Assembly: GCA_910575705.1 (NCBI GenBank)
Contig: CAJTFG010000001.1
Coordinates: 124,001 to 188,000 of the forward strand
DNA length: 64,000 bases
Reading direction: 5' to 3'
From: Erysipelotrichales bacterium
GTDB lineage: Bacteria > Bacillota_I > Bacilli_A > Erysipelotrichales > Erysipelotrichaceae
The translations under genes and the position numbers were made by a program. The notes under the pieces are model-generated. The model saw only the letters and a program-made list of their open reading frames with translations. It did not search any database and had not been told where the DNA came from. Of the stretch, positions 3,862 to 38,977 are shown piece after piece. Every line of letters begins with the position of its first letter. Positions within the stretch are counted from its first letter, which is position 1.

Positions 3862-4764
3862 CTACTTTACCATGCTCGTCTTTTTATAATAAAAACCGTT
3901 TGTGATATGATCATCCATATGGTTCTGTTCATAATCCCGCAACATCTGCTCTGCATCCACAGCGCCATCCAAAATCCGGCGATAACAGCCCAGCGCTTCT
4001 TTTACATAATCAACATCATGAAAAATACCATGGATACGCACATTCCCGATACCAGCCTTCGCCAGCTGACGGATCTCCAAAAAGCTGACAAGCGTAAACC
4101 CCGAAAATGCATGCGTTCCCAGATCATCTTCCATAATCGGCATATGTTCATCCCTTGTTTCTTCCATCATATACAGCGTTCTCTTATTACGAATATCCAC
4201 ATCTCGATGGATAAACTTCAAATAACTGCTGATAAGATGACGCTTGCTATGCATCATATTCAGCCGTCCGTGAATAACCGTTTCCAACTGATCGCCTCGG
4301 CATTGCGATGCAATGAAACATATTTCCGCCAATGTGATCTCCCCTGACAGCACGACGCTCTGTATACGCTCCTGTAAATAAAACCGCACATCCATCGCGT
4401 TGGTAATCAGCGTATCCGGCTGATACCGCAGACGATCCTCCATTCCCAGCTGCTGAGCAAACCGCAGAACCGCTTCATCCCCGAAATATATACCGTCTAT
4501 ATCCAGATTTTTCAGAAAACGGAGATGCTCCCATAATCCATCCAGTTCATCTTCCGTAAACAGCCGATTCACCAATGCGAAGCATTCCAATCCCACAGCA
4601 GAACATTCTTTTTTATATAACGGAAAATCCTCAGTTTTGACAGGAGCAGCACCCCGCGCACTATAAAAAGGATCCGCAAGGACAACCGCATCCGCACCTG
4701 CCTCTTTCAGTTCTTTTAAATGATGTAGATCATAGGCATCCGTAATAAATTTCAAGTTTTTCAC
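3862..4764 (-). CDS. yrrN: Short U32 family protein, YrrN type
   Basis: 300-aa short-form U32 protein lacking the C-terminal extension of its partner. It has a TIM-barrel-like start (EAGADAVVLADPFYSARGAAPV) and the conserved VVLSGEITLAEICFIASQC plus VIHGRLNMMHSKRHLIS region, where the usual Cys-rich U32 loop is reduced. By B. subtilis precedent it acts with YrrO in prephenate-dependent wobble-uridine hydroxylation. The annotated start is GTG at 4764; a TTG 9 nt inside, with AAGGTG upstream, is a possible alternative. Confidence 0.85.
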   Translation of the reverse strand: MKNLKFITDAYDLHHLKELKEAGADAVVLADPFYSARGAAPVKTEDFPLYKKECSAVGLECFALVNRLFTEDELDGLWEHLRFLKNLDIDGIYFGDEAVLRFAQQLGMEDRLRYQPDTLITNAMDVRFYLQERIQSVVLSGEITLAEICFIASQCRGDQLETVIHGRLNMMHSKRHLISSYLKFIHRDVDIRNKRTLYMMEETRDEHMPIMEDDLGTHAFSGFTLVSFLEIRQLAKAGIGNVRIHGIFHDVDYVKEALGCYRRILDGAVDAEQMLRDYEQNHMDDHITNGFYYKKTSMVK

Positions 4765-5804: not shown

Positions 5805-6170
5805 ATGAACATTGACTATAAAACAGTAGGCGCCAGGATACGCAAAGTCCGAATAGAACACGATCTTACACAGGAAGCATTAGCTGAATTAGTCGGTATT
5901 TCCACATCCCATGTAAGCAATATCGAAACGGGCACAAAGCAGATCAGCCTATCTACTTTGATCAAACTAGCAAACGCTTTAAAAGTATCTGTTGATGAGC
6001 TATTGTTCGATAACGTCATCCACTCCAACACAAAATATGAAAAAGAGATCATGCGCTATTTAGATGACTGCAGTGATTATGAAATACGACATATCATTGA
6101 TCTGATCATCGCCACCAAAGCATCTATACGCAAAAATATTGAATTGAAGAAAAAATTTGAAAATTCATAA
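5805..6170 (+). CDS. XRE-family helix-turn-helix regulator
   Basis: 121-aa DNA-binding protein. Residues 8-65 form a Cro/CI-type HTH (ARIRKVRIEHDLTQEALAEL, then GISTSHVSNIETGTKQISL). The C-terminal 50 residues are charged and helical, with no recognisable sensor domain. A strong ribosome site (AGAGGAGAAC) precedes the ATG. It stands alone between tRNA-Asn and a convergent nitroreductase gene. The target is unknown. Confidence 0.85.
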   Translation: MNIDYKTVGARIRKVRIEHDLTQEALAELVGISTSHVSNIETGTKQISLSTLIKLANALKVSVDELLFDNVIHSNTKYEKEIMRYLDDCSDYEIRHIIDLIIATKASIRKNIELKKKFENS

Positions 6171-19781: not shown

Positions 19782-19892
19782 AGTAGGGCTCCCCTTTCTC
19801 AAAGACTTACTAATTAACATTATATCTATTATGAAAGAAAATTGCAATGTCTTTGAAACATTTTTCCAACACCGTCATTTCTTTCACAAACC

Positions 19893-20174
19893 CTCTGTAA
19901 TTCACTTTGCATATAGAATCATTTCCATATAATCGAAGCATATATAACAGAGCCGGACGCTGACGGACTGCACGGGCTATATCAGGGGGACTTACGTTGA
20001 ATCGTATCTGACCGGAAATAGATATGTGAAAAGAGGATTGAAGAGTATAGCTGCTGGATGACCAATTCCCACAATTTACACCCGGTGTACATAATCCATT
20101 TGCTGGGTATATAATCGAATCGATAACGGAGGAAGCAATCGAAACAGGAGTATGATATGCAACAGAAATCGTGC
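19893..20174 (-). repeat. Variable cassette A (silent C-terminal segment)
   Basis: Minus-strand cassette. The 5' box (minus GCACGATTTCTG, 20163-20174) reads Thr-Ile-Ser. It opens a stop-free frame of 75 codons that ends in Gln-Arg-Pro-Ala-Leu at box 19947-19962 (plus ACAGAGCCGGACGCTG). A 60-bp imperfect palindrome (CTCTGT at 19893, ACAGAG at 19947) follows. There is no ATG start: an in-frame TAA lies just before the 5' box. The core has W37 followed by SSSS, about 38 residues before the end, as in C-type-lectin-like domains. The inner stem is weaker than in other copies. A long (about 200 bp) spacer joins it to cassette B. Confidence 0.75.
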
Positions 20175-20373
20175 CCTCTTACAAAGGAACCCCTATCCAT
20201 CATTTTAAGGAGCTCCTGATCTACCTTATAATGCAACTCCAGTCCAAAAAGTTTTCAATAAGGTTTCTCTTATGCATAAAAGTTCATTCTCTTTTTCTTT
20301 TTTAACCTACCTTTATAGAAAGGATAACAGATATTGTATAAATATTCGCTAGTAAATATTGAAAATACCTATC

Positions 20374-20633
20374 CTCTGTATGTTATATAGAACTATGATA
20401 TATACCATAGTTTCCTAACATTCACAGAGCCGGACGCTGAAGATGTGTGCTTGGTTGTGGATAAGTACGAAACTGTAGGAAATAACCACGGCTGTTTGGT
20501 GAACCGACCCATCTATCAGGAAATGGAGTAGCGCCAAGAGCAACTGTGTCGACATTACCGGCTCGTTGATATGCAAAAGTAACTTTTTGTCCGAAAATAT
20601 TAGGTTCATCAAATTGATACAAAGAAATCGTGC
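20374..20633 (-). repeat. Variable cassette B
   Basis: Minus-strand cassette with 69 stop-free codons from Thr-Ile-Ser (box around 20623-20633) to Gln-Arg-Pro-Ala-Leu-stop (box 20424-20439). The palindrome is 56 bp (20374-20429) with a perfect inner stem AACTATG / CATAGTT around an 8-nt loop. An ATG lies three codons before the 5' box, but no ribosome site is visible. The core sequence is unrelated to that of cassette A apart from the two boxes. It is the upstream-most member of the first array. Confidence 0.75.
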
Positions 20634-26399: not shown

Positions 26400-26522
26400 A
26401 ACCGATCCTCCGTTTTGAAACATCTGCAATCCTTACCTGTCTCTTATATCGAAATTATATCATTTTCTCATAAACTATCCATAAGCTGCCTTTGCGCTTA
26501 TCAACACCTTAGGTATCAATTC

Positions 26523-26806
26523 CTCTGTATGTTATATAGAATCATAATACTTATTATAATTATTGAATATCTACAGAGCCGGACGCTGTTGCTGATCTAA
26601 TGCATATGTAAATCTGGCATCATAGGAACCGATATGAGATAGAAAAATAGCCACGTTTGGTTTTTGAAATCCTGTTACCGGAGTAGACCCTAATACTCCT
26701 TCCAAATCATACTCGGACACTTTATCGTAAGCAAATACCTCATCAACGGAGCCGTTAAAATTCTGCCCGATAATCGGTACCAGTGTCCTAGAATTAGAAA
26801 TCGTGC
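26523..26806 (-). repeat. Variable cassette C
   Basis: 77 stop-free codons from Thr-Ile-Ser (26796-26806) to Gln-Arg-Pro-Ala-Leu-stop (26573-26588). The palindrome spans 56 bp (26523-26578); its inner stem AATCATA / TATAATT has one mismatch. Upstream the frame runs back through Ser-Tyr-Ser as in cassettes D and F. It is last in the five-cassette array and lies 124 bp upstream of a lipoprotein gene start. Confidence 0.78.
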
Positions 26807-26907: not shown

Positions 26908-27188
26908 CTCTGTATCTTGTATACGATCATAATGCTTATCATGATCTCCTTACATCGACAGAGCCGGACGCTGTGAATAGGGGCCATTTAAACTACCACC
27001 AAAATAACTGGCAGTCCCCTGATAACTGATGCCAAATAGTCTTCGCTCTAATAAAGGGGAGGAGGAATACAGATACCAAAAAAATCCATCTTCCATATTT
27101 AACGGTTGAAAGCTTAGTTCTTTTATCTGGGTTCCTGTAAGATTATGCCCTATGTTCGGGAGAACATTATTTTGAACAGAAATCGTGC
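26908..27188 (-). repeat. Variable cassette D
   Basis: 76 stop-free codons from Thr-Ile-Ser (27178-27188) to Gln-Arg-Pro-Ala-Leu (26958-26973), then Ser-Met-stop. The 56-bp palindrome (26908-26963) has inner stem GATCATA / CATGATC, a sequence different from its neighbours yet still paired. W37 is followed by YLYSSS. No usable start codon precedes it. A ~100-bp spacer with a CCTTTATATAAAGG hairpin precedes it on the minus strand. Confidence 0.78.
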
Positions 27189-27285
27189 TATAACTGCTAA
27201 AGAGGGATAAATAAAAAGCCTACCTTTATATAAAGGATAGCAGATACTATGGAAATAGTTGCTAGAAAATACTGGAAATGAAAAC

Positions 27286-27581
27286 CTCTGCATCTTATAT
27301 ACAACTATAATACGTACTATAGTTATCGAATCTATACAGAGCCGGACGCTTGGATCCCATAGTGCGTGCATTGCCTTGCGGTTCTCCTTTAGCGTACATC
27401 GCGTCAACACCACCGGTACTCCCGTAAGCTAAGGCATCCATATCCCAGTGATGTCCATTTGAGAACACAGATGATGACCAGATACGAGTATCACCAGTCG
27501 TATACAATGTTGCTAATTGTCCATATAAATTACCACATAACTCCGGAGGATAATAGATGCCAAATACTACAGAAATCGTGC
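27286..27581 (-). repeat. Variable cassette E
   Basis: 81 stop-free codons from Thr-Ile-Ser (27571-27581) to Lys-Arg-Pro-Ala-Leu (27336-27350; one base change turns Gln to Lys). The 56-bp palindrome (27286-27341) has a perfect inner stem AACTATA / TATAGTT with an 8-nt loop. The core holds W34-SSS. Its upstream spacer is the long type shared with cassette A, containing TTATGCATAAG. Confidence 0.78.
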
Positions 27582-27707
27582 CCCTCTTATAATGGAATCC
27601 TGCTCCTCATTATCTTCTTCCTACCTTTGGAACTGAATCCCAGACCAGTTGTTTTAAAGAAGGTTCCCCTTATGCATAAAATTTCATCCTCTTTTTTCTA
27701 CCATTCC

Positions 27708-27964
27708 CTCTGTGTCTTATACAGAACTATAATACTTACTATAGCTTTCTCTTCTTTACAGAGCCGGACGCTGAAAATACTGTTGATCATATGCAGGAGG
27801 CCAACCGATGACAGCACTATACGTTACATACCATAAGCCATCAGAATAAGGTGCTCTTCCTAATGAACTGCTGCTTAGCCACGCCCCTCGACCTTTACAG
27901 ATCATACTGAAAACAGCGTTTTTTCCATACACCGGCACTAAGAAGAATGAATGAGAAATCGTGC
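27708..27964 (-). repeat. Variable cassette F
   Basis: 68 stop-free codons from Thr-Ile-Ser (27954-27964) to Gln-Arg-Pro-Ala-Leu-stop (27758-27773). The 56-bp palindrome (27708-27763) has inner stem AACTATA / TATAGCT with one mismatch. The core reads W28-L-SSSS followed by a second aromatic pair (LWYVTY), the clearest C-type-lectin-like pattern of the set. Confidence 0.78.
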
Positions 27965-28064
27965 TATAGCTGATCCAAGAAGGGAAGAAAAGAATAAAAA
28001 TCCTACCTATGAAATAAGGATAGCAGATAATTTATAAAAATTTATTAGTAAATATTGGAAAAGC

Positions 28065-28331
28065 CTCTATATTGCATGCTTCATTATAATTCCTATTATA
28101 ATGATCAGATGCATCTAACAGGGCCGGACGCTGATGGCAGGAGAGATTTCCTTAACTTAGGATCGCCATAAGCACCATTGCACTTCAATGTAAAGATCAC
28201 GCTTTTAAGAACATCTAGTGAGGAGATAGATAGTGCTTCAAAGTCATTATTACCGCCTGAACAGGATCCAAAACCTAGTGATGGAACAACGACTTGTTTA
28301 AGAATAATTTGATTCTGGACAGAAATCATGC
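28065..28331 (-). repeat. Variable cassette G (out of frame, degenerate)
   Basis: Same layout, but box-to-box distance is 211 nt, so the Gln-Arg-Pro-Ala-Leu frame is lost by one base. The 5' box reads Met-Ile-Ser instead of Thr-Ile-Ser, the 3' box has one change (ACAGGGCCGGACGCTG, 28118-28133) and the outer palindrome arm is CTCTAT / ACAGGG. The inner stem TCATTATAA / TTATAATGA is, however, a perfect 9 bp. It is first in the array on the coding strand and looks like a decaying copy. Confidence 0.7.
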
Positions 28332-38642: not shown

Positions 38643-38699
38643 ATGATCACCTGCTTTCTACATCATAGTGTATTCCGTAAAGTAAAAAATATTGAAGTC

Positions 38700-38977
38700 C
38701 TCTGCATAAAATATGAAATTATAATACTTACTATAATTATAGAATACATACAGAGCCGGACGCTGATAAAAAGCACCTTTACCATCATCTATCCAGCTTG
38801 CAATACAAATACCAACAGTACCATTCGATTTATAGTACCATGGTTGTGTATTTGCTCCAGTATAATTTCCGGTTGATGCGCTCCAGCCGTGTTCATAGGC
38901 TCTTAATCCAAGTTTACAATAATAAAAGGAAGCATTTGCTTGTGAGGATATTAGACTTTGATAAGCAGAAATCGTGC
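38700..38977 (-). repeat. Variable cassette H (solitary)
   Basis: 75 stop-free codons from Thr-Ile-Ser (38967-38977) to Gln-Arg-Pro-Ala-Leu (38750-38765); the frame continues a further ~30 codons through the palindrome. The 56-bp palindrome (38700-38755) has perfect inner stem AATTATA / TATAATT. The core has W31-SAS. An ATG lies 6 codons before the box and another 4 codons further up, with no clear ribosome site. It sits 10 kb from the arrays, alone, between a kinase and the MGMT-like gene. Confidence 0.75.

Follow-up and report, generated by a model that had tools for sequence, protein, structure and literature searches.

Diversity-generating retroelements (DGRs) of the BPP-1 type combine a reverse transcriptase (RT) of a distinct clade, an adjacent avd gene, a template repeat (TR) with an IMH*-like end, a structured Sp element after the TR, and copying into a variable segment with an RPAL end. 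The Sp of known DGRs recruits the RT-Avd complex and primes cDNA synthesis at the TR end (PMC12875486). Adenine bias was present in nearly all DGRs of a large survey, and the targets nearly always have C-type-lectin folds (PMC8144416). Some DGRs have several variable segments (VRs); in Pseudomonas costantinii, where the target is a giant adhesin and few A-to-N changes are reported, few TRs serve many VRs (PMC6642488).

A second group of systems, comprising vlsE/vls of Borrelia, pilE/pilS of Neisseria, and tprK of Treponema, pairs one expression site with a silent library and short flanking repeats, and works by DNA recombination without an RT. The silent libraries number about 15 segments for vls, about 19 for pilS, and about 50 for tprK. 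Integron cassettes are likewise short and are each followed by a structured palindrome, the attC site.

Here we describe a set of cassettes that we interpret, with a probability of roughly 0.8, as dispersed TR-Sp units of a DGR-derived retroelement with at least 115 templates and one target, apparently operating without adenine mutagenesis. The features listed above for BPP-1-type DGRs, and for its own relatives (L090-L105, L115), recur or are predicted in this system. It differs from them in having at least 115 templates dispersed over the chromosome instead of one, an operon without a TR, no adenine bias, a VR near the N terminus of a giant adhesin, and an RT with glutamine at the position of I181 in the BPP-1 enzyme. 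The P. costantinii arrangement is reversed, many TRs serving one VR. The vls, pil, and tprK systems lack its retroelement-type RNA element and have smaller libraries. In contrast to integrons, no integron-type recombinase was identified, the structured element acts as sense RNA, and the hairpin is not passed to the expressed gene. A search of open-access papers found no description of many-template or faithful DGRs. The system is known from one genome, in a single snapshot.

Coding Cassettes in the Window and across the Genome

The window, which is the whole stretch of 64,000 nucleotides analysed (G000:C1:124001-188000, from a genome of 1.85 Mb), holds eight cassettes, all intergenic and on the minus strand, at 19.9, 20.4, 26.6, 27.0, 27.3, 27.8, 28.1, and 38.8 kb. 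They are members of one genome-wide set, spread over contigs C1-C4, in which GCACGATTTCT is followed by a core of approximately 190-280 bp, then by AGCGTCCGGCTCTGTA, and finally by a palindrome. The 3' motif AGCGTCCGGCTCTGT, with up to two mismatches allowed, occurs at 141 sites in the genome, as against 1 for a reversed-pattern control; about 400 kb was read around these sites, and the regions covered are those of the cassettes, the expressed parent gene, and the RT. The features of the window are as follows, hairpin scores being those of a covariance model, R1.

19876..19961, minus strand: Sp-like RNA hairpin (R1, 55 bits)
19948..20174, minus strand: cassette core TISVAYHTPVSIA...QRPAL
20357..20438, minus strand: Sp-like RNA hairpin (R1, 83 bits)
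20425..20633, minus strand: cassette core TISLYQFDEPNIF...QRPAL
26506..26587, minus strand: Sp-like RNA hairpin (R1, 88 bits)
26574..26806, minus strand: cassette core TISNSRTLVPIIG...QRPAL, with a parent-like 5' arm (TTGGATCAGCTATAGCACGATTTCT) and a twin cassette in L041
26891..26972, minus strand: Sp-like RNA hairpin (R1, 74 bits)
26959..27188, minus strand: cassette core TISVQNNVLPNIG...QRPAL
27269..27350, minus strand: Sp-like RNA hairpin (R1, 82 bits)
27337..27581, minus strand: cassette core TISVVFGIYYPPELCG...KRPAL
27691..27772, minus strand: Sp-like RNA hairpin at the 3' end of the cassette 27759..27964 (R1, 76 bits)
27759..27964, minus strand: cassette core (putative template repeat) TISHSFFLV...QRPAL, in frame and stop-free, with W28-LSSS 41 residues from its end
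28048..28132, minus strand: Sp-like RNA hairpin of a decayed cassette (R1, 51 bits)
28120..28331, minus strand: decayed cassette core, 199 nt, frame-broken, with a GCATGATTTCT start (frame analysis)
38683..38764, minus strand: Sp-like RNA hairpin (R1, 79 bits)
38748..38977, minus strand: single cassette core TISAYQSLISSQ...QRPALY

The interval 27571-27964, singled out in the first-pass annotation, is one minus-strand cassette, made up of the core at 27759-27964 (with 95.5% identity to a second cassette, located in L040), the hairpin at 27691-27772, and a leader toward the next cassette. Such leaders (e.g., window 27580-27690; also L049 and L050) carry extra short-repeat families, GGATTGGGGTTCC, GGTTCGGTCACTTTGGG, and TTTTATGCATAAG, which are common to several cassettes and vary in order. 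At position 3204 of L045 (G000:C1, ~260.2 kb), the end of a sigma-factor-like CDS is followed at once by a 3' motif and hairpin, with no core between, an arrangement that looks like a cassette interrupted by a mobile element or joined to one.

Core length is divisible by three in 116 of 122 motif pairs, and the frame TIS...QRPAL is free of stops in 112 of those 116, compared with 1-7 in each of the other five frames. That annotation had reported a tryptophan followed by a run of serines before the terminal RPAL, and the pattern is real: of the genome's 91 distinct cores without stops, 48 have W.{0,3}S[S/T] at 28-52 residues ahead of QRPAL, whereas shuffled cores give 5.3 on average and 12 at most. 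The five instances in the window (W37-YLYS, W31-SAS, W28-LSSS, W34-SSS, and W37-SSSS) stand 39-48 residues before the RPAL end. A single stop-free frame together with this motif indicates that the silent cassettes are maintained as protein-coding pieces; the templates differ from one another at most residues. A few cassettes are frame-broken or contain stops, and the decayed example at 28048-28331 indicates that unused cassettes can degrade.

The Expressed Adhesin and Exchange of Segments

The coding parent of the cassettes lies on another contig than the window (G000:C3:176531-197065, minus strand) and encodes an adhesin of 6,844 aa in which inspection of the sequence identifies a signal peptide, repeated domains, and a C-terminal membrane anchor. 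The expressed core, at approximately aa 311-387 (TIS...QRPALY), forms the C-terminal half of the N-terminal domain of this protein. The earlier proposal that the cores are the C-terminal half of a domain is supported insofar as they make up the latter half of a domain in a surface protein; the assignment to DUF1566/FISUMP or FGE-like families is not supported. No match to DUF1566, FISUMP, FGE, or DUF6273 was obtained when the parent domain and a homologue were searched against Pfam and NCBIfam, or five cores against Pfam.

A protein search of the genome found no second expression site, and the parent domain was matched weakly in other genomes. One homologue, in a genome of another genus (G086), has the same boundary (...WIDYQTI...NWWLST...RPALYF, as against ...WISYSTI...YFLST...QRPALY here); its 3' motif is single-copy in that genome, which therefore has no cassettes. 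Directly upstream of the giant adhesin is a sigma-factor-like gene (L061 16682-17758, G000:C3, minus strand), and the G086 homologue likewise has a sigma-factor gene upstream; possibly this gene couples adhesin expression to a surface signal.

The expressed core is 100% identical over 247 nt, from TTGGATCAGCTATAGCACGATTTCT to AGCGTCCGGCTCTGTA, to a silent cassette near G000:C1:633 kb, and the flanks of the two differ. Silent cassettes show the same relationship to one another. The core at 26574-26806 of the window is 100% identical over 228 nt to the L041 cassette (near G000:C1:78.5 kb), and the two cassettes share 0 nt of 5' flank past the 5' motif and, counted from where the 3' motif begins, 14 nt. 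Further core pairs are 99-100% identical, with a common 5' flank of 0-15 nt and common 3' sequence of 14-73 nt. Identical cores in unrelated flanks indicate that cores move as units between the 5' and 3' motifs and that the donor is retained. The parent and some cassettes share 5' arms of 26-73 nt, and in many cassettes the arm is 11-16 nt long. Two other cassettes, in L046 (core ending at 5921) and L052 (core ending at 3946), are 95% identical over their first 184 nt and have unrelated ends, a mosaic that is evidence for partial copying inside cores.

There is no sign of adenine mutagenesis in these comparisons. The expressed core has 0 mismatches to its donor; among near-identical cassettes, 46% of substitutions involve A and transitions predominate, which amounts to no adenine bias; and AAC makes up 1.7% of codons. 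The first-pass suggestion that variation comes from whole swapped segments is borne out.

A Structured RNA Element at the Cassette Ends

The palindrome that follows the core is a two-part hairpin. In an alignment of 46 copies, 86% of pair cells are formed, and 83 cells have changed on both sides, compared with 30 in shuffled alignments and 19-33 in slid controls; none of the five measures was matched by any shuffle. On the sense strand, the inner stem contains 105 G-U pairs as against 24 A-C, an excess which shows that it is the RNA of coding sense on which selection acts. With the covariance model, more than 110 copies were detected at the ends of cassettes and 0 in the expressed gene. Rfam gave no match, nor did the model find a match in 196 other genomes of the family.

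Upstream of 35 of 114 cores is an extended -10-like sequence, TGnTA[T/A]nnT, followed by AAGGYAG (0.08 expected from shuffled sequence). This promoter-like motif suggests that many cassettes are transcribed.

The Reverse Transcriptase and Its Canonical Relatives

The sole RT of the genome is encoded on contig C2 (G000:C2, ~179.0-180.2 kb), 12 nt downstream of an avd gene. Among solved structures, the closest to it is bRT, the BPP-1 enzyme (8ub7, E = 3.6e-43), and the SQ motif and YMDD of the C2-encoded RT are intact. The Avd protein matches PF22296 (5.7e-12, above the cut-off), phrog_3206 (1.7e-21), and NF033474 (8.4e-11, below the cut-off). The operon has no TR-Sp: comparison by BLAST of the surrounding 15 kb with itself, the parent gene, and the cassettes revealed no repeat that could be a TR near the RT.

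Alignment places Gln208 of this RT, within the xGxxxSQ motif, at the position of bRT I181, which is I, V, or L in nearly all of approximately 160 relatives and Gln in none; R74 of bRT is conserved as R91. Work by Handa and colleagues in 2021 is said to have found that R74 and I181 of bRT promote adenine errors. Glutamine is typical of this position in other RTs (Q151 in HIV). We predict from this residue that the RT copies its template faithfully.

RT relatives were drawn from a collection of 85,000 genomes. Sixteen near relatives (~40-46% RT identity) are canonical DGRs that have the order avd-TR-Sp-RT with the VR downstream, and their VR mismatches fall mostly at template adenines. Some of the relatives' DGRs (L094, L097, L098, and L101) have two targets, in which an N-terminal variable piece is joined to an ATPase-like region (GPSGIGKTERIK).

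In these relatives, Sp has a 7-bp outer stem, the 5' arm of which is the TR end; the stem encloses a 9-bp hairpin with a loop of AAGA, AAGG, AAGT, or AGGT, the gap from the inner hairpin to the outer 3' arm is 10 nt in 15 of 16 cases and 9 nt once, and GG follows. The cassette hairpin is built in the same way: its outer stem, of 7 bp, is formed from the 3' motif's end, the inner hairpin of 9 bp has a loop that is mostly AAGT, AAGC, or AGGT, the gap is 10 nt long in 68 of 91 cassettes, and a G follows. This plan, first noticed by comparison and measured afterwards, is present in 80 of 114 cassettes, compared with 0.39 when shuffled. The Sp elements of the relatives are longer by 30-35 nt at their 5' side, and the sequences differ: the cassette-hairpin covariance model had no significant match in the relatives' loci. 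The putative link between cassettes and enzyme accordingly lies in architecture and position, not in sequence. Given the part that Sp plays in known DGRs, the match in plan makes the cassettes look like TR-Sp units that have departed from the operon and multiplied.

The protein ends of the two systems also agree. The targets of the relatives end in ...W(S/T)K(S/T)...A..V...G...RPAL, and a profile-profile comparison aligns them with the cassette cores in the expected register (E = 0.0038; 0.15-0.69 for five column-shuffled controls and one reversed); the pattern W-S...A..V...G...RPAL is common to both. Sequence searches of Pfam, NCBIfam, and the PDB assigned no fold, and AlphaFold models (pLDDT 45 for a core from the window and 35 for a relative's target) were too poor for a fold to be read from them. 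From the common register and the folds of DGR targets generally, a C-type-lectin fold of the cassette cores is plausible. The relation to DGRs raised in the first-pass annotation is real, as the genome's DGR RT and Avd and the similar ends of the relatives' targets attest. That annotation set cassette swapping against DGRs; the evidence suggests that the cassettes themselves are DGR template repeats.

As to class, the genome has a DGR-clade RT, an Avd, a TR homologous to a VR within a gene, and a structured Sp directly 3'. It lacks adenine-biased TR/VR mismatches and a TR close to the RT, and we therefore regard the system as a DGR-derived variant, not an ordinary DGR. The missing adenine bias is expected if variants are drawn from a library of templates, but the classic proof of a DGR goes with it. 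In the target of BPP-1, IMH is followed by a stem-loop, of which the parent gene shows no clear sign.

Alternative Explanations

Silent cassettes beside one expression site with flanking repeats are also what defines the vls and pil type of system, and the cassettes could recombine through their short repeats by RecA-type segmental gene conversion, as in vlsE or pilE, the RT being unrelated. The single expression site, the many silent in-frame cassettes, the short common arms, and the retention of an identical donor would all fit, as would the longer arms that some cassettes share with the parent, and RecA recombination between cassettes would be expected to mark the cores in a similar way. 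We nevertheless consider this explanation unlikely. It accounts neither for a conserved sense-RNA structure after the cores nor for the agreement of that structure with the Sp of the RT's own relatives, and it leaves the promoter-like motifs and an operon without TR-Sp unexplained. Many of the arms, moreover, at merely 11-16 nt, are short for RecA pairing.

A cassette with a 3' hairpin, arrayed in one orientation within a cluster and dispersed over the chromosome, might instead be spread by a recombinase, the palindrome serving as an attC-like or transposase site. The genome has just three tyrosine recombinases, on contigs C2 and C5, and no integrase-near-cassette layout; G-U pairs are tolerated on one strand only, as in an RNA, and the expressed gene has received no hairpin. 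We judge integron- or transposition-like movement very improbable. Least probable of all is that the cassettes are decaying pseudo-cassettes, remnants of a once-active system with no present function: the few broken or stop-bearing copies, such as the decayed one in the window, are what this would predict, but the great majority of cores have kept their one open frame, and the expressed core is still identical to a silent one. RecA-type conversion would account for the identities between cores, and an integron for the hairpins; a DGR-derived template library is the only explanation under which the cores, their arms, the RNA element, the operon, and the enzyme all find a place, and we prefer it for that reason.

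Proposed Mechanism and Significance

Under the template-library reading, each cassette would be a template consisting of a 5' homology arm (GCACGATTTCT or longer), a core, a 3' arm acting as IMH*/IMH (AGCGTCCGGCTCTGTA), and Sp. The Sp RNA would recruit the Avd-RT complex encoded elsewhere, on contig C2; the RT would copy the cassette core into cDNA; and the cDNA would replace the matching segment of the single expressed adhesin gene, while the donor cassette stayed in place. Diversity would then come from the choice among at least 115 templates and not from adenine errors, in keeping with the fidelity predicted from the glutamine at the bRT I181 position. Cassette transcription, RT-dependent homing, fidelity, and a role in surface recognition are steps that we infer from the genome.

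We lean, with some reserve, toward a fuller picture, an archive-based form of antigenic variation in which an RT that has lost adenine mutagenesis would serve more than 100 separately transcribed TR-Sp units descended from a single template, the recognition domain of the adhesin would be rewritten by template choice, and cDNA would also rewrite the cassettes, so that the archive itself evolves.

If the proposal is correct, this bacterium would copy ready-made variants without error, joining the DGR strategy of hypermutation to antigenic variation by cassettes, and its RT would provide a natural test of the role of the I181 position. DGR searches that demand repeats beside the RT would miss such template libraries. 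The system would also amount to a naturally occurring means of writing chosen sequences, in which each Sp-tailed RNA template is directed to one genomic site.
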